A DNA stretch of 25,341 bases. Source: a virus. The position numbers and the translations under genes were made by a program. A model generated the notes under the pieces. It was not told the origin of the DNA, searched no databases, and was given only the letters and a program-made list of their open reading frames with translations. The stretch lies in the IMG/VR virus record IMGVR_UViG_3300011114_000092, positions 1 through 25,341 of that record; one strand, given 5' to 3'. This document shows, in pieces, positions 11,258-14,577 of the stretch (position 1 is its first letter; each line of letters starts with the position of its first letter).

Positions 11258-12171
11258 GATTCACTTAGGATTCTCCATGCTGTTGCCGCGCATAAAGGCA
11301 CTTGTCCATTTCCAATGGCTTTAAGTCTGTCCACCCTAGCGGCCACCCCATCAGCCACTCTGGAAATGGCGGGTTCAAATTGCCAGAAGTTGGATGAACC
11401 AATTGACTCAACATAATTTGTTTGCCAATTGCAATCCTGCGCTGAATTGATGGATTGCTCATATTGCCCCTGTCCCGATTGTCTGAGGCTTGCGGTGTTG
11501 GCCACATTTTTACCTTTGTTGGCAAATCGCATTCCATTCCTTTCAGACTTCTTCCGCTGCTTCCTTTCCAATCCCTGCTCTGAGGTGTAGGCCAAGTTTC
11601 CTTGCGCTTCTTTAATGCTCGCCTGCTGTTGCTTCCACCGTCCAATCCTGTCGTGTTGGGTGTGTGAAAGCTGTCCACACCATTTGGCGACAATCCAGAT
11701 TCTGTCCCTCTGATGCGGCGCTCCAACGTCCGCTGCTCCCAACACTCCCCATCTCGCATCAAACCCCATTGAGGCCAAGTCTCCGAGAACTCTTCCAAGT
11801 CCCCTAGAAGTGAGCATTGGTGAGTTTTCCACAAAGACGTATTGGGGTCGTACTTCACGAATGATCCTCGCCATTTCTCCCCACATTCCGCTTCGTTCTC
11901 CGTCAATTCCTGCGCCTTTTCCTGCGGCACTAATGTCCTGACATGGAAAGCCACCACTGATGACATCGACAATTCCTCGCCAGGGATGTCCGTCAAAAGT
12001 TTGTACGTTATCCCAAATCGGGAAAGGCGGGAGAAGTCCGTCATTTTGTCGGGCGCACAATACGCTTGCTGGGTAGGCTTCCCACTCAACTGCACAGACT
12101 GTTCGCCATCCAAGGAGTTTGCCGCCAAGTATTCCCCCACCAGCGCCTGCGAAAAGAGCCAGCTCATTCAA
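11254..12171 (-). CDS. DNA cytosine-5 methyltransferase, 305 aa
   Basis: C5 methyltransferase motifs are in order. Motif I is FAGAGGG (residues 7-13, AdoMet binding). Motif IV is GGFPCQDIS (73-81) with catalytic Cys77. Motif VI is ENSP (115-118; canonical ENV, Ser is a variant). Motif VIII is QRDRIW (154-159). Motifs IX/X are LKAIGNGQVP (283-292). The target-recognition region between about 165 and 265 is loosely built and has repeated VANTAS/LAYTSEQ-type pieces. Phage C5 enzymes protect DNA from host restriction. The start is TTG at 12171, overlapping the stop of the replication-like gene; the stop overlaps the next gene by four bases. The whole gene is also open in the +1 frame (see separate entry). 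Specificity cannot be read from the sequence. Confidence 0.92.
   Translation of the reverse strand: MNELALFAGAGGGILGGKLLGWRTVCAVEWEAYPASVLCARQNDGLLPPFPIWDNVQTFDGHPWRGIVDVISGGFPCQDISAAGKGAGIDGERSGMWGEMARIIREVRPQYVFVENSPMLTSRGLGRVLGDLASMGFDARWGVLGAADVGAPHQRDRIWIVAKWCGQLSHTQHDRIGRWKQQQASIKEAQGNLAYTSEQGLERKQRKKSERNGMRFANKGKNVANTASLRQSGQGQYEQSINSAQDCNWQTNYVESIGSSNFWQFEPAISRVADGVAARVDRLKAIGNGQVPLCAATAWRILSES
11265..12167 (-). CDS. Overprinted 300-aa open frame inside the methyltransferase gene
   Basis: This frame is +1 to the methyltransferase and is open over almost its whole length. It starts at an ATG (12167-12165) placed immediately after the TGA of the replication-like gene, whereas the methyltransferase itself uses TTG four bases earlier. 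The product starts MSWLFSQALV. It has two WPTPQ repeats (residues 192-196 and 222-226), each followed by a short (R/S)D stretch, and a conserved-looking end with NLNPPFPEWLMGW (263-275) and GWTDLKP. The WPTPQ repeats are the +1 reading of the VANTAS-type pieces of the enzyme's recognition region. From memory, similar predicted proteins exist in phages, but I have not checked. It may be a real second product, or a conserved shadow of the enzyme's DNA sequence. Confidence 0.4.
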   Translation of the reverse strand: MSWLFSQALVGEYLAANSLDGEQSVQLSGKPTQQAYCAPDKMTDFSRLSRFGITYKLLTDIPGEELSMSSVVAFHVRTLVPQEKAQELTENEAECGEKWRGSFVKYDPNTSLWKTHQCSLLGDLEEFSETWPQWGLMRDGECWEQRTLERRIRGTESGLSPNGVDSFHTPNTTGLDGGSNSRRALKKRKETWPTPQSRDWKGSSGRSLKGMECDLPTKVKMWPTPQASDNRDRGNMSNPSIQRRIAIGKQIMLSQLVHPTSGNLNPPFPEWLMGWPLGWTDLKPLEMDKCLYARQQHGES

Positions 12172-12521
12172 CGTCTTCCCCGCAACGCATCCAGGCGAGC
12201 TTTTATTTCCGCAGGCATCGGCACAGCCCTGGCGCTTTCTTCTGCCAGCTTGTCCAAAATGTGGACGGTTTTTTTAATTTCAGGTATCTCAGCCCCGTCC
12301 CAGCGCCGTTGGTTAAGGTAAACAGCAGGTGATGGGATATATGCACCACCGTCTTTGCGCCACTGGTCGGTGGTTTTCATCCATTCAATGTGCTTAATTA
12401 TTTGGTCACAGCAACTATCACAATAATACTTTTCCCACCGTTTCAAGCAATCAGACTTACCGCCTTTTCGGGTACTTGTAGGCCATGCAGCCCAGAATCT
12501 GTCAAAACCTGATTCAAACAT
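12168..12521 (-). CDS. Replication-protein-like (helical, primosomal O/DnaT-type C-terminal) protein, 117 aa
   Basis: The N-terminal FDRFWAAWPTSTRKGGKSDCLKRW (residues 6 on) and the later IPSPAVYLNQRRWDG (about 83-97) match the C-terminal helix-loop module found in phage replication proteins and DnaT-like primosomal factors. A Cys-rich segment (YYCDSCCDQ, 33-41) is unusual and might bind metal. The start at 12521 has GGAG eight bases upstream. The first 79 bases overlap the zinc-ribbon gene in another frame. Only the C-terminal part of a typical phage replication protein is present; no winged-helix or helicase domain is seen. A replication initiation or primosome loading role is inferred. Confidence 0.68.
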   Translation of the reverse strand: MFESGFDRFWAAWPTSTRKGGKSDCLKRWEKYYCDSCCDQIIKHIEWMKTTDQWRKDGGAYIPSPAVYLNQRRWDGAEIPEIKKTVHILDKLAEESARAVPMPAEIKARLDALRGRR

Positions 12522-12631
12522 TTTTGATTCTCCAGTTGTTCATATCGACCGCATTGATTACAAGTCCATGCAACCCTGTTGTTTGTCAGTTGATGTTCTC
12601 TTATTAACCCACCACATTTGCACTGTCTCAT
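12443..12631 (-). CDS. Small zinc-ribbon protein, 62 aa
   Basis: The sequence MRQCKCGGLIREHQ followed by WTCNQCGRYEQ gives a Cys-x-Cys and Cys-x-x-Cys pair, the shape of a zinc ribbon. An AAGGGA Shine-Dalgarno lies about six bases upstream of ATG at 12631, which supports the start. The C-terminal ~26 residues overlap the replication-like gene. Stand-alone ribbons of this kind are often phage regulators or nucleic-acid binding proteins. No closer function can be given. It is the first well-supported gene after the structured RNA, and so may be controlled by it. Confidence 0.65.
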   Translation of the reverse strand: MRQCKCGGLIREHQLTNNRVAWTCNQCGRYEQLENQKCLNQVLTDSGLHGLQVPEKAVSLIA

Positions 12632-13043
12632 CTGTATCCCTTATTGCCTTTTGGTGATTGTTTGAGCAAAGCACAGCCTTACCGTGGTCAAAACCAAAGT
12701 TCGCCTGTGCCTCGATGCTTGCCTTTCGGAGCCATGTCATCGCAATTGCACTGTCCCAGACTATTTCACCACCACGCTCTAGGACTAAGCCCACGTTCCC
12801 CGATCTGGTCTGCCGTGTATCGGGGTATCTCAAACGCAACCACTGACGTACCGCATTGCGCTGTCCAAAAACAAAAACCCCGCAAGATGCTCTGTGGTCT
12901 TGGTTCTTGGCGAGAACAACAGCAAGGCGATTGAACTGAGTCAAAAGACTCGCTTGCTGTCTGTCAAGACCACACAGAAACCTGCGGGGTTCTAAACTCA
13001 GTTCAACGCCCAGATGCCACTCTAGACGGTTGTGATTATACAT
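12558..13043 (-). CDS. Doubtful 161-aa open frame across the structured RNA
   Basis: This long open frame starts at ATG 13043 (MYNHNRLEWHLGVE), seven bases after the Cro-like gene, and ends inside the zinc-ribbon gene (overlap 74 bases). Against it: no Shine-Dalgarno precedes the ATG; the promoter -10 TATAAT occupies its second and third codons; its first half coincides with the strongly base-paired segment 13010-12878 followed by a T tract; rare codons (AGA, CGG, AGG, CTA, ATA) are frequent in its second half; and no family is recognised. For it: about 160 codons without a stop and a protein-like second half (GNVGLVLERGGEIVWDS). It may be a real protein with an internal start, or simply a non-coding leader. 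Confidence 0.3.
   Translation of the reverse strand: MYNHNRLEWHLGVELSLEPRRFLCGLDRQQASLLTQFNRLAVVLAKNQDHRASCGVFVFGQRNAVRQWLRLRYPDTRQTRSGNVGLVLERGGEIVWDSAIAMTWLRKASIEAQANFGFDHGKAVLCSNNHQKAIRDTDETVQMWWVNKRTSTDKQQGCMDL
12867..12902 (-). terminator. 3' arm of the RNA stem plus T tract, intrinsic-terminator-like
   Basis: On the minus strand the arm ending in TTGCGGGG (12885-12878) is followed by TTTTTGTTTTT (12877-12867). Its partner is CCCCGCA at 12989-12983, about 80 bases upstream, with nested hairpins between. The GC-rich closing pairs directly before a U tract are what an intrinsic terminator needs, although the loop is much larger than normal. If C1 pairs with C2 first, the stem may form less well, giving a terminator/antiterminator choice. 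Confidence 0.6.
12867..13028 (-). ncRNA. Candidate ~160-nt structured RNA with its own promoter and terminator
   Basis: Predicted transcript from about 13028 (promoter -10 at 13040-13035) to the T tract 12877-12867. Minus-strand elements in order: C1 13010-12996; A1 12989-12965; B1 ACAGCAAG 12960-12953; a small hairpin GAGTC-TTTT-GACTC 12951-12938; C2 12941-12926; B2 CTTGCTGT 12926-12919; a hairpin GTTCT-CGCCA-AGAAC 12917-12903; A2 12902-12878; TTTTTGTTTTT. A1 pairs with A2 over 25 positions (21 Watson-Crick, one G-U, three mismatches). B1 pairs with B2 over 8 bp. C1 pairs with C2 over 15 bp with a single bulged A. C1 lies outside the A stem and C2 in its loop, so the pairing is a pseudoknot or an alternative to the B and small hairpins. 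The T tract exists in this orientation only, which fixes the strand. Function unknown: attenuator, antitermination element or regulatory small RNA. Confidence 0.65.
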
Positions 13044-13062
13044 AGTTTTGTTAAGTTGTAAA
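13035..13062 (-). promoter_or_regulatory. Sigma70-type promoter of the structured RNA
   Basis: On the minus strand TTTACA (13062-13057, 5/6 to TTGACA) is separated by 16 bases from a perfect TATAAT (13040-13035). A CTTAACAA site (13055-13048) lies in the spacer, as it does for the cro promoter, so the same repressor could shut both. The -35 overlaps the last codons of the Cro-like gene. The transcription start is expected near 13027-13030. Confidence 0.72.
13048..13055 (-). promoter_or_regulatory. Operator-like CTTAACAA site in the RNA promoter
   Basis: This is one of four copies (one with 7/8 match) of CTTAACAA in 257 bases around the Cro-like gene. Here it occupies the spacer between -35 and -10 of the promoter at 13035-13062 and touches the stop codon of the Cro-like gene. 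Binding of a repressor here would block RNA polymerase. The Cro-like protein is the obvious candidate binder (inference). Confidence 0.5.
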
Positions 13063-13206
13063 CCACTGGGGTCTTAAATCTTTTAATTGCCGCATTCGCA
13101 GCTCTGGCACGGCTTTCCATTGGCAAACCGCTGATCGGCTTACCTTGAGTAACTTAGCAAGCTCAGCCTGTGAGCCTGCCAATTTGATAATGTCTTGTTT
13201 AGTCAT
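13051..13206 (-). CDS. Cro-like helix-turn-helix repressor, 51 aa
   Basis: This short gene runs from ATG 13206 to TAA 13051. The product starts MTKQDIIKLAGSQAELAKLL. It contains a helix-turn-helix (SQAELAKLLKVSRSAVCQWK, residues 12-31) with the Cro/C1-type pattern Q-x-x-L-A-x-x-L-x-V-S-x-x-A-V-x-x-W. It ends just after a short basic segment (RMRQLKDLRPQW), as in the P22-Cro and YdaS-type small repressors. No Shine-Dalgarno is seen and the predicted start of its promoter falls on or beside the ATG, so the mRNA may be leaderless. It probably binds the CTTAACA sites nearby and controls both the divergent plus operon and the leftward transcripts. A partner CI-type repressor was not found in this window. 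Confidence 0.88.
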   Translation of the reverse strand: MTKQDIIKLAGSQAELAKLLKVSRSAVCQWKAVPELRMRQLKDLRPQWFTT

Positions 13207-13212
13207 GCGGTG

Positions 13213-13240
13213 ATTCTATGTTAAGGCAGATAAACAACAA
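13213..13240 (-). promoter_or_regulatory. Promoter of the Cro-like gene
   Basis: On the minus strand TTGTTG (13240-13235) and TAGAAT (13218-13213, 5/6) are separated by 16 bases. CTTAACA (13225-13219) fills the end of the spacer next to the -10. The expected start is about 13206, the A of the cro ATG itself, which would make a leaderless mRNA. Confidence 0.6.
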
Positions 13241-13304
13241 AATCCCCACAAAATGGTCGGGTACTTAACAAATTGCTTGCATGATTGTTTAGTTTGCTTA
13301 ACAA
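13219..13304. promoter_or_regulatory. Operator-like cluster: three CTTAACA(A) sites between cro and the plus operon
   Basis: Copies lie at 13219-13225 (minus orientation, CTTAACA), 13264-13271 (plus, CTTAACAA) and 13297-13304 (plus, CTTAACAA). The last two are 33 bases apart, close to three helical turns. A fourth lies at 13048-13055 in the RNA promoter. Repeated sites in the divergent intergenic region next to a Cro-like gene are the expected arrangement of a phage operator region. Binding is inferred. Confidence 0.5.
13265..13293 (+). promoter_or_regulatory. Weak candidate promoter of the plus-strand operon
   Basis: TTAACA (13265-13270, 5/6 to TTGACA) lies 17 bases before TTTAGT (13288-13293, 4/6). 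It would start transcription near 13300, about 50 bases before the first ATG. The -35 coincides with one operator-like site. Several other alignments in this AT-rich segment are possible, so the exact promoter is uncertain. Confidence 0.35.
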
Positions 13305-13352
13305 TACATCCATGCCCCAGCAATTTCGCACAGGGTCTTAAAGGAGTAAACA

Positions 13353-13475
13353 ATGTTTGACATAGAAACCTACAAAAAACCGACCGATTGGGCGCAAGTC
13401 GCCCTGTATGCGGTATCCATAGCCGCCATTGTGGTGGTCGCTCTTGACGTTTTAGTCTGGAGGGCATCATGCTGA
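13353..13475 (+). CDS. Small single-span membrane protein, 40 aa, first plus-strand gene
   Basis: AAGGAG lies five to six bases before the ATG at 13353, a strong ribosome-binding site. The product begins MFDIETYKKPTDWAQVALYA and has one hydrophobic segment (residues ~15-35, ALYAVSIAAIVVVALDVLVW). The stop overlaps the next gene's start by seven bases. Tiny membrane proteins at the head of early phage operons can act in host takeover or superinfection exclusion, but no function can be assigned. Its size makes it easy to miss. Confidence 0.72.
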   Translation: MFDIETYKKPTDWAQVALYAVSIAAIVVVALDVLVWRASC

Positions 13476-13989: not shown

Positions 13990-14577
13990 ATGAAACAAAT
14001 TGCAACCGCGCTGGTCAAAGCACAAAAGGCATTTGGGCCTGCTTTGAAGTCCTCTACAAACCCGCATTTCAAGTCTCGCTATGCTGACCTTGCCGCTTGT
14101 GTAGAGGCGGTCATTGCAGGCTTAAACGACAACGGTATAGCCCTGATCCAGAAATGCTATGACTGCACAGATGGCGTAATGGTCGAAACCATGTTTGTTC
14201 ATGAATCAGGCGAAATGCTTGAATGCGGCATCCTCCACGTTCCCGCTAGTAAACAAGACCCACAGGGTTACGGCTCGGCTTTGACGTATGCCAGGCGGTA
14301 TAGCCTAATGGCTGCTTGCGGTATTGCGCCCGAGGACGATGATGGTAACAGCGCCAGCCGCCGCACTGAGATTAAGTCCACGGTCAACGAAAACCAAATC
14401 CTTGACCTACTAGCGGTGATGGATGAGGTCACCACGCTTAAAGAGCTGCAAGATGCCTATAAACAGGCGTACAAGGCCACAAACGGCGAGCAGGCATGGC
14501 AGACCAAGGTCATTGCCAAAAAAGACGTTAAAAAGGCGCAGTTGGAAGCCGCATTGTCTAAGGAGTTAACCAAATGA
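13990..14577 (+). CDS. erf: ERF-family single-strand annealing protein, 195 aa
   Basis: ERF proteins anneal complementary single strands in phage homologous recombination and genome circularisation. The N-terminal core MKQIATALVKAQKAFGPALK, NPHFKSRYADLAACVEAV and the block GYGSALTYARRYSLMAACGI (about residues 96-115) followed by EDDDGN are diagnostic of the ERF superfamily. GGAAAC lies just before the ATG at 13990. The C-terminal 60 residues are helical and charged, as in P22 Erf. It is two genes upstream of a YqaJ exonuclease and near an SSB-like gene, which makes a complete two-component recombination set. Confidence 0.92.
   Translation: MKQIATALVKAQKAFGPALKSSTNPHFKSRYADLAACVEAVIAGLNDNGIALIQKCYDCTDGVMVETMFVHESGEMLECGILHVPASKQDPQGYGSALTYARRYSLMAACGIAPEDDDGNSASRRTEIKSTVNENQILDLLAVMDEVTTLKELQDAYKQAYKATNGEQAWQTKVIAKKDVKKAQLEAALSKELTK

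Follow-up and report, generated by a model that had tools for sequence, protein, structure and literature searches.

In the pRNA of phage phi29, a helix formed by the 5' and 3' ends closes a three-way junction, and the structure and a matched pair of loops are kept. In the small immunity RNAs CI of P4 and C4 of P1, variable segments set the specificity by their complementarity to other sites of the phage transcript. The sequence of phi29-type pRNA is highly variable (PMC12670572), and GOLLD and ROOL are presented in the relevant sections of PMC12286853 as ornate RNAs with covarying contacts, some of which are formed between molecules. The putRNA of phage HK022, in the account of PMC9378689, is about 70 nucleotides (nt) long, consists of two stem-loops, and, while still part of the nascent transcript, acts on the elongation complex. 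The put antiterminators suppress pausing and termination in cis by way of the beta' zinc-binding domain. According to the passages on phage small RNAs in PMC12197685, lambda OOP is a short RNA with its own promoter, pO, and is antisense to cII; OOP and other phage small RNAs are mostly antisense or Hfq-bound. Here, we describe a structured RNA (RNA-1) in a viral DNA of 25,341 nucleotides, IMG/VR record IMGVR_UViG_3300011114_000092, positions 1 to 25,341; this whole stretch is called the window. The unit of promoter, ~160-nt structured RNA, and U-run occupies positions 13062-12867 on the minus strand, adjoining a Cro-like repressor gene. RNA-1 is almost certainly a transcribed structured RNA with a pseudoknot between two segments, C1 and C2; judging from comparison among homologues, it is equipped with sigma-70-type promoter boxes, a fold made of the helices H5, A, B, and D, the pseudoknot, and a U-run, contains no protein frame, and occurs as different alleles between the same flanks.

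Among the systems above, phi29 pRNA is the nearest in kind to RNA-1 in terms of a similar size, a three-way junction, a variable sequence, and a matched pair. Unlike pRNA, however, RNA-1 gives no pRNA row in Rfam, ends with a U-run terminator, and is patchy in its presence. Also, the carriers of RNA-1 possess a conventional terminase large subunit (TerL) and not a phi29-type packaging ATPase; their terminases fall into three PHROG groups, namely phrog_2 in the window and phrog_38 and phrog_9 in other carriers. In contrast to P4 CI and P1 C4, C1 and C2 of RNA-1 showed no second target in 110 loci of up to 12 kb each, where the longest match within the own locus (7.7-8.1 nt) was equal to the cross match. 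RNA-1 resembles putRNA, as the latter is described in PMC9378689, in being a phage element that is located downstream of early promoters and would work as RNA alone, but it differs in its length of ~160 nt and in its four helices plus a pseudoknot. Unlike OOP as portrayed in PMC12197685, RNA-1 is sense to cro and rep and is predicted to adopt a compact fold. GOLLD and ROOL are, by the description in PMC12286853, far larger than RNA-1. No family in Rfam 15 reached the gathering score in the window or in 16 loci, and the only rows up to an E-value of 10 for RNA-1, which were mir-146 (E 1.4) and PreQ1 (E 2.6), were far below the gathering scores and were taken as chance. As judged from these searches, RNA-1 is a family missing from Rfam 15, and constitutes class I of several architectures described below. 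A blastn search against 50,697 annotated phage records gave no match for class I, II, or III, and the class I model found nothing convincing in Rhodoferax phage P26218, Methylophilales phage MEP301, and MW202484 (best E 4.8). Two exact patterns gave no hit each in bacterial genome contigs, a result covering those strings only; no tRNA or tmRNA was found in five loci, and a literature search with narrow terms in the open-licence text of PubMed Central returned no description of such an RNA.

RNA-1 in the window follows the 51-residue Cro-like gene (13051..13206, minus strand), which matches Pfam PF14549 (P22_Cro) above the cut-off with E 7.4e-11, supporting the proposal in the preliminary description that a self-contained unit of promoter, RNA, and terminator adjoins a cro gene. 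The promoter boxes proposed there, TTTACA (13057..13062) and TATAAT (13035..13040) with a 16-nt spacer, are present on the minus strand, and the final codons of cro overlap the -35 box; both boxes were located in the sequence and by a scan of the upstream 50-mers. The 5' hairpin H5 (13007..13028), with 8 base pairs (bp) and the loop GUGGCA (13020-13015), and the small hairpin D (12903..12917), with the loop CGCCA and abutting A2, correspond to the two small hairpins noticed earlier. The long terminator stem had been reported to match at 21 of 25 positions plus one G-U, and exactly 21 Watson-Crick pairs, one G-U pair, and three mismatches were counted; the full A stem extends over 27 positions with three mismatches (A1, 12991-12965; A2, 12902-12876). 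For the inner stem (B1, 12950..12960; B2, 12919..12930), the 8 bp described stand, and 3 further bp are formed around a bulged C. The hypervariable arms C1 (13006-12995) and C2 (12942-12931, within the B loop) do pair, with a duplex energy of -15.7 kcal/mol, but the 15 bp originally assigned to them shrink to 11-13 bp, since the additional GCG:CGC draws on bases belonging to H5 and B2. The U-run UUUUUGUUUUU (12877-12867) is found after A2 as described, and is regarded as the tail of an intrinsic terminator. The minimum free energy of RNA-1 was -71.2 kcal/mol in comparison with a mean of -46.1 kcal/mol for shuffled sequences (z -5.9; 0 of 200 shuffles), so that the structure exceeds chance in the folding as well as in the covariation among 79 homologues described below.

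A feature unnoticed in the earlier reading is that UGGC in the H5 loop is complementary to GCCA (12911-12908) in the D loop, which would allow 4-6 bp. Both loop motifs were present in all of the 38 full-length distinct rows of an early alignment, the loci of which had not been picked by these motifs; the parser used for the permutation test described below, in contrast, required the motifs GTGGCA and GCCAAGA, and a loop count on the parsed loci is hence no test of the contact. Because both loops are nearly invariant, the contact between H5 and D is put forward only as a proposal and may be formed. With a three-way junction of A, B, and D and a matched C1:C2, pairing within one molecule and pairing between molecules both fit. 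The linker between C1 and A1 is 0-7 nt among the homologues, and B plus C is about as long as A; as estimated from these helix lengths, B and C could lie alongside A, and the intramolecular fold would be feasible.

Homologues were collected in several ways: an exact 23-nt pattern led to three IMG/VR contigs, searches with the Rep and Erf proteins to at least 80 loci each, and a conserved 22-nt pattern to at least 120 stretches, which contain part of D and A2 by construction, whereas C1, C2, H5, B, and the promoter lie outside the pattern. A nucleotide profile found class I RNA-1 in 177 of 282 sequences (281 loci and the window, redundancy included), corresponding to 113 distinct cores; six loci without landmarks were left out. 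When the class I model was applied to 34 chosen whole virus records, 24 matched, and each of them contained RNA-1 only once, disregarding echoes on the reverse strand and one record with overlapping ends; RNA-1 thus lacks tandem repeats, unlike type III toxin-antitoxin RNAs. The ten records without a match comprised eight Erf relatives and the records of two loci, L064 (class III) and L023, which are described below.

The fold is well kept among 79 non-redundant aligned homologues. Within the paired columns, 92.5% of 4685 cells can pair, as compared with 35-47% in controls slid by 1-3 columns, a comparison in which the structure is favoured by having been drawn on the window sequence. Changes on both sides occur in 32 of the 60 pairs and in 385 cells, where 132 would be expected by shuffling, and none of 500 shuffles reached any of five covariation measures. 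The compensatory changes looked for in the A, B, and C pairs of related phages are hence present. The A stem, with 26 pairs counted, is 95.0% paired (10 pairs changed on both sides and 12 invariant), the B stem is 93.8% paired (7 of 11 pairs changed on both sides), and the D hairpin is 98.0% paired (1 of 5); H5 also changes on both sides in 6 of its 8 pairs. For the C helices the values are 84.8% and 79.5%, with 8 of 10 pairs changed on both sides, but the alignment misplaces their unequal arms.

Because MAFFT misplaces C arms of unequal length, these arms were also tested free of any alignment. Among 95 distinct pairs of tail and middle segments (3 of the 113 cores were unparsed), the longest Watson-Crick run between C1 and C2 of the same RNA averaged 9.58, while that in permuted combinations was 4.80 (standard deviation 0.12; maximum 5.31 in 10,000 permutations), and a run of at least 6 was found in 94 of the 95 pairs. 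The matched strings are of 69 kinds, even though some are merely longer or shorter cuts of one allele; so many different matched strings cannot be one inherited change. Judged by this test together with the covariation, the pairing of C1 with C2 is maintained by complementary change, and the pseudoknot suspected in the preliminary description appears to be a true one.

The reading frame 12558-13043, which runs through RNA-1, was rejected as a protein. It is open in 87 of 131 loci but closed by stops in the other 44, the variability by codon position is flat (0.138, 0.172, and 0.155), and no hit was obtained in PHROG up to E 0.01 or in Pfam up to E 1; the covariation also speaks against it. Column variability instead follows the helices: 0.342 in C, 0.118 in other paired columns, and 0.165 in unpaired ones. 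The case considered in the preliminary description, in which relatives keep the frame and break the pairs, turned out to be reversed, with the pairs kept and the frame broken in those 44 loci. As far as the signals at both ends are concerned, promoter and terminator sequences recur across the class I homologues. Upon scanning of 120 distinct upstream 50-mers for -35 and -10 boxes with a spacing of 16-18 nt, 46 scored at least 10 of 12, compared with 1% of base-shuffled versions, and the best -10 box ended 3-4 nt ahead of the model start in 79 of the 120. A run of five U residues after GGG(G) was seen in all 39 rows of the early alignment.

RNA-1 varies while its surroundings do not. In the pair of loci L021 and L015, the upstream 144 nt are 100% and the downstream 300 nt 97.7% identical, but the RNA is only 84.0% identical and the C arms differ; the corresponding values for upstream, downstream, and RNA are 100%, 98.7%, and 89.4% in L262/L208 and 95.1%, 97.0%, and 75.3% in L024/L028. 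When the 18 pairs with the closest flanks are considered, ten differ in the RNA allele; among 133 pairs with flanks at least 80% identical, 78 have an RNA-1 whose similarity is lower than that of either flank. A further case is L023, in which the end of cro, the promoter, and the downstream sequence are as in its relatives, but the RNA is 182 nt long and strongly diverged: BLAST detects only its 5' part, whereas the class I model aligns the helices with E 3e-12. Its new C arms, GCCAAGAG and CUCUUGGC, and its loops, UGGCA and UGCCA, were identified by eye.

RNAs of other architectures were also found at this place between cro and rep. Class II came to light when rep loci lacking class I were scanned for terminator hairpins; it is an RNA of ~110 nt in which the loop of a 5' hairpin is complementary to a single-stranded junction within the terminator hairpin. 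The carriers are L048, L051, L053, L059, L061-L063, L065, L066, L077-L086, and L300-L399. In the first 13 sequences, the own match was 7.08 as compared with 4.84 in permuted combinations, exceeding all 10,000 permutations, with L084, which had no usable 5' part, counted as zero. A pattern of the terminator arm then gave 112 stretches and 110 new loci, of which 100 (L300-L399) were used together with four earlier ones; 103 of these 104 were parsed, and their 89 distinct sequences had an own match of 7.89 versus 5.13 (highest of 10,000 permutations, 5.61), with 28 kinds of matched string. Class II is thus hypervariable as well. Class III (L064:4503-4700 and L057) has the pairing GGCUUGGU/ACCAAGCC, and class IV (L095, L100, and L107, which were found through Erf) has UUGGCGG/CCGCCAA; with a single matched sequence each, their variability is not shown. 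By eye, L470 appears to hold a further small class of the same plan, and the terminator hairpin does not follow that plan in L099, L101, and L110, which are without class I. The plan common to the classes is a pairing between a 5' segment and another one within the terminator hairpin. Among 80 matches listed for Rep, 74 span the region and 6 do not cover it; an RNA of some class is present in 73 of these 74 loci, namely in 50 as class I, 1 as the diverged form, 19 as class II, and 3 as class III, the last two being assigned by the terminator-arm motif, and 1 has none.

A second structured RNA, RNA-2 (module alpha; 12652..12861, minus strand), begins 5 nt past the U-run of RNA-1, leaving no space for a promoter. 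In 31 sequences, RNAalifold predicted 38 pairs, 13 of which have compensatory changes; codon positions are flat, indels break the frame, and no Rfam family was above the gathering score in this region (WT1-AS_5 with E 0.64 was below it and was taken as chance). RNA-2 contains a hypervariable direct repeat of 7-8 nt, which varies between phage groups: the internal copy R1 (AAAGGCAA, 12719..12726) follows GGCUCC, and the second copy R2 (AAAGGCAA, 12644..12651) stands right behind the conserved 3' end CACCA. In 45 distinct pairs of R1 and R2, the own shared string was 7.71 nt, in comparison with 4.44 in permuted pairs (highest 5.36), and one pair was below 6; in seven distinct pairs from class II loci the values were 7.43 and 3.81 (highest 6.57). 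R1 and R2 share only 5 nt in L422, which is behind a terminase gene. No complement of the repeat was found in RNA-1 or RNA-2, and a search for a third copy within 2-3 kb gave no clear excess (own 6.21 and 6.54 versus cross 5.98 and 6.39). Where the available sequence sufficed, a labelled RNA-2 module was seen behind RNA-1 in 121 of 131 loci of class I and in 67 of 93 of class II, and 6 further class I loci were read as module alpha by eye. Module alpha is replaced by the modules beta, gamma/zeta, delta, or epsilon or by unlabelled ones in L217, L220, L073, L226, L051, L320, and L338; these look structured, are conserved, stand behind both RNA-1 classes, and have no Rfam match at the gathering score. 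It might be imagined that any type of RNA-1 (I, II, or another) can be joined to any RNA-2 module (alpha, beta, gamma, delta, or epsilon) in a mobile, protein-free two-RNA cassette, in which the RNA-1 pseudoknot is used to tell the copies of different phages apart and the RNA-2 repeat copies the 7-8 nt behind its own 3' end as a record of, or guide to, its place in the genome; we consider this extended picture unlikely.

In terms of genomic context, 7 of 135 non-redundant class I loci are located directly behind a terminase gene. For class II, 2 of 103 loci are directly behind a terminase gene, and 73 of the 103 are near none of the four query genes, with mixed neighbours. In L181 (6439-8694, minus strand) and L223 (56-1570, plus strand), where the RNA is directly behind the terminase large subunit gene, this gene seems by eye to be interrupted by an intein-like sequence. 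We then looked from the side of terminase: among 80 terminase loci, 4 were too short, and of the remaining 76 loci, 22 show a labelled RNA-2 module a short way behind terminase, preceded by a class I, class II, or class II-like RNA, and 54 do not. Class II-like RNA occurs somewhere in 19 terminase loci, at least three of which (L416, L436, and L444) are among the 54; 15 distinct sequences of it had an own match of 7.07 versus 5.31 in permuted combinations (highest 6.40), with 6 kinds of string. The RNA unit therefore looks like an accessory and mobile element rather than an essential part of packaging. The probabilities that we assign to the explanations below are unaffected by these terminase counts, as none of them rested on packaging.

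On the basis of sequence comparison, we lean slightly toward the statement as a whole that RNA-1 is a trans-acting, folded accessory RNA with an interchangeable pseudoknot allele, and rank it as more likely than a cis-acting attenuator, an oligomer-forming RNA, or a put-like element. Of its parts, the release of RNA-1 as a separate RNA is probable, and a role in trans with allele specificity is evenly balanced. RNA polymerase would start near 13028, C1 would pair with C2 once C2 emerges, and A2 would then close the long stem and release a compact RNA of ~160 nt, in which UGGC of H5 might dock on GCCA of D. Once set free, RNA-1 would exert its effect in trans through its folded form and not by antisense pairing with another nearby site of the phage, and its pseudoknot would be exchangeable in that the scaffold demands arms that match, whatever their sequence. 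Exchange between unchanged flanks, together with a helix that is free in its sequence but always matching, suggests selection to differ from the copies of other phages; being different might avoid cross-pairing of RNAs from co-infecting phages or, alternatively, recognition by the host. Given that RNA-2 has no room for its own promoter, some transcripts probably read through the RNA-1 terminator, and RNA-1 would then be the leading member of an accessory cassette of two RNAs, one that would have moved between phage genomes to sites behind cro and behind terminase.

Several observations nonetheless weigh against a trans-acting RNA with exchangeable alleles. Among the 18 pairs whose flanks are most alike, eight carry the same or nearly the same RNA, and a hypervariable helix can also arise through neutral double substitution or through simple recombination of entire RNA genes. 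The C run is only 4 in L171, and the class II locus L365 has a mismatch; also, the permutations of C1:C2 ignore relatedness, and covariation cannot separate intramolecular from intermolecular pairing. The sampling is uneven, with 50 of the 58 loci of the early alignment obtained through rep, and the context between cro and rep is hence over-represented; moreover, the loci from the 22-nt pattern bring part of D and A2 with them. The L023 record was unmatched in the whole-record search in spite of its score in the separate model alignment. As for the unit itself, 74 of the 120 upstream 50-mers are below 10 of 12, the spacer in the window is 16 nt, and conservation of the -35 box in cro contexts may be driven by the protein, as the box lies in the last cro codons. 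The terminator of RNA-1 may also be leaky.

The strongest alternative is one in which RNA-1 is an attenuator or leader: whether the pseudoknot folds, which might be sensed by way of a second copy or a protein, would set the readthrough past the A stem of transcription that comes from the RNA-1 or the cro promoter and passes into RNA-2, the zinc-ribbon-like open reading frame (ORF) described below, and rep. The position between cro and rep fits such a role, and the close and frequent succession of RNA-1 and RNA-2 without promoter space would allow regulated readthrough. A classical attenuator with mutually exclusive hairpins, however, does not fit, because C1:C2 and A1:A2 are compatible; a terminator would need neither a conserved upper A stem nor loops such as those of H5 and D, and RNA-1 is also present behind terminase genes, where other genes follow. 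We thus regard an attenuator as rather unlikely. We give less weight still to a self-assembling RNA, in which C1 and C2 of different molecules, and likewise H5 and D, pair with each other to form phage-specific dimers or rings in the manner of phi29 pRNA. Arms that are variable yet matched, the three-way junction, the lack of a match for the two exact RNA patterns in bacterial genome contigs, and the terminase gene adjoining the RNA in some phages would agree with it, but the estimated geometry makes pairing within one molecule feasible, and a part of the packaging machinery is disfavoured by the spread of the carriers over three PHROG groups of terminases. The 54 of 76 terminase loci without a labelled cassette close behind the gene point in the same direction, albeit weakly, as at least three of them carry class II-like RNA elsewhere and unlabelled classes may occur.

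The roles listed in the preliminary description were a regulatory small RNA, an attenuator, and a put-like antitermination element; while the first two are undecidable from the sequence, the third is hardly tenable. A cis-acting element of the HK022 put kind would be consistent with the location downstream of the Cro gene in the same direction, but the size and fold of RNA-1 are unlike those of putRNA, no Rfam family reached the gathering score, and the conserved fold includes the terminator arm and so is complete only once the RNA is finished, making this reading very improbable. A coding sequence with chance inverted repeats, for which the frame open in the window and in most loci could be cited, is dismissed with near certainty by the stops, the flat codon positions, the lack of database hits, and the covariation.

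Downstream of RNA-1, where a type III toxin-antitoxin locus would have its toxin gene, the neighbours seen are RNA-2, a small ORF, and rep or late genes. In the window, an ORF of 62 amino acid residues (12443..12631, minus strand), which begins just past R2 (MRQCKCGG..CNQCG), has a CxC..CxxC arrangement that is zinc-ribbon-like by eye, with a Pfam match below the cut-off (Zn_ribbon_LapB, E 0.028); a similar start is also seen by eye behind RNA-2 in several other phages, including those with terminase contexts (L202/L410). The next gene, rep (12168..12521, minus strand), would encode a replication-initiation-like protein (phrog_9474, E 5.5e-15; no Pfam row up to E 1). On the other side, positions 13206-13354 appear to be a divergent regulatory region between the Cro gene and a rightward operon, which includes an Erf-type annealing protein (13990-14577). 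The nearest annotated phages, including Rhodoferax phage P26218 and Pelagibacter phage HTVC010P, are ~38-43% identical at the terminase.

In conclusion, a structured RNA that is found again and again in uncultured phages, without a family in Rfam or a blastn match among 50,697 annotated phage records, would represent a new class of RNA gene in phages. The helix C1:C2 provides a natural experiment, with dozens of pseudoknot alleles on a constant scaffold, and the occurrence of different RNAs built on the same plan in place of RNA-1 at one locus suggests that these RNAs have a common function.

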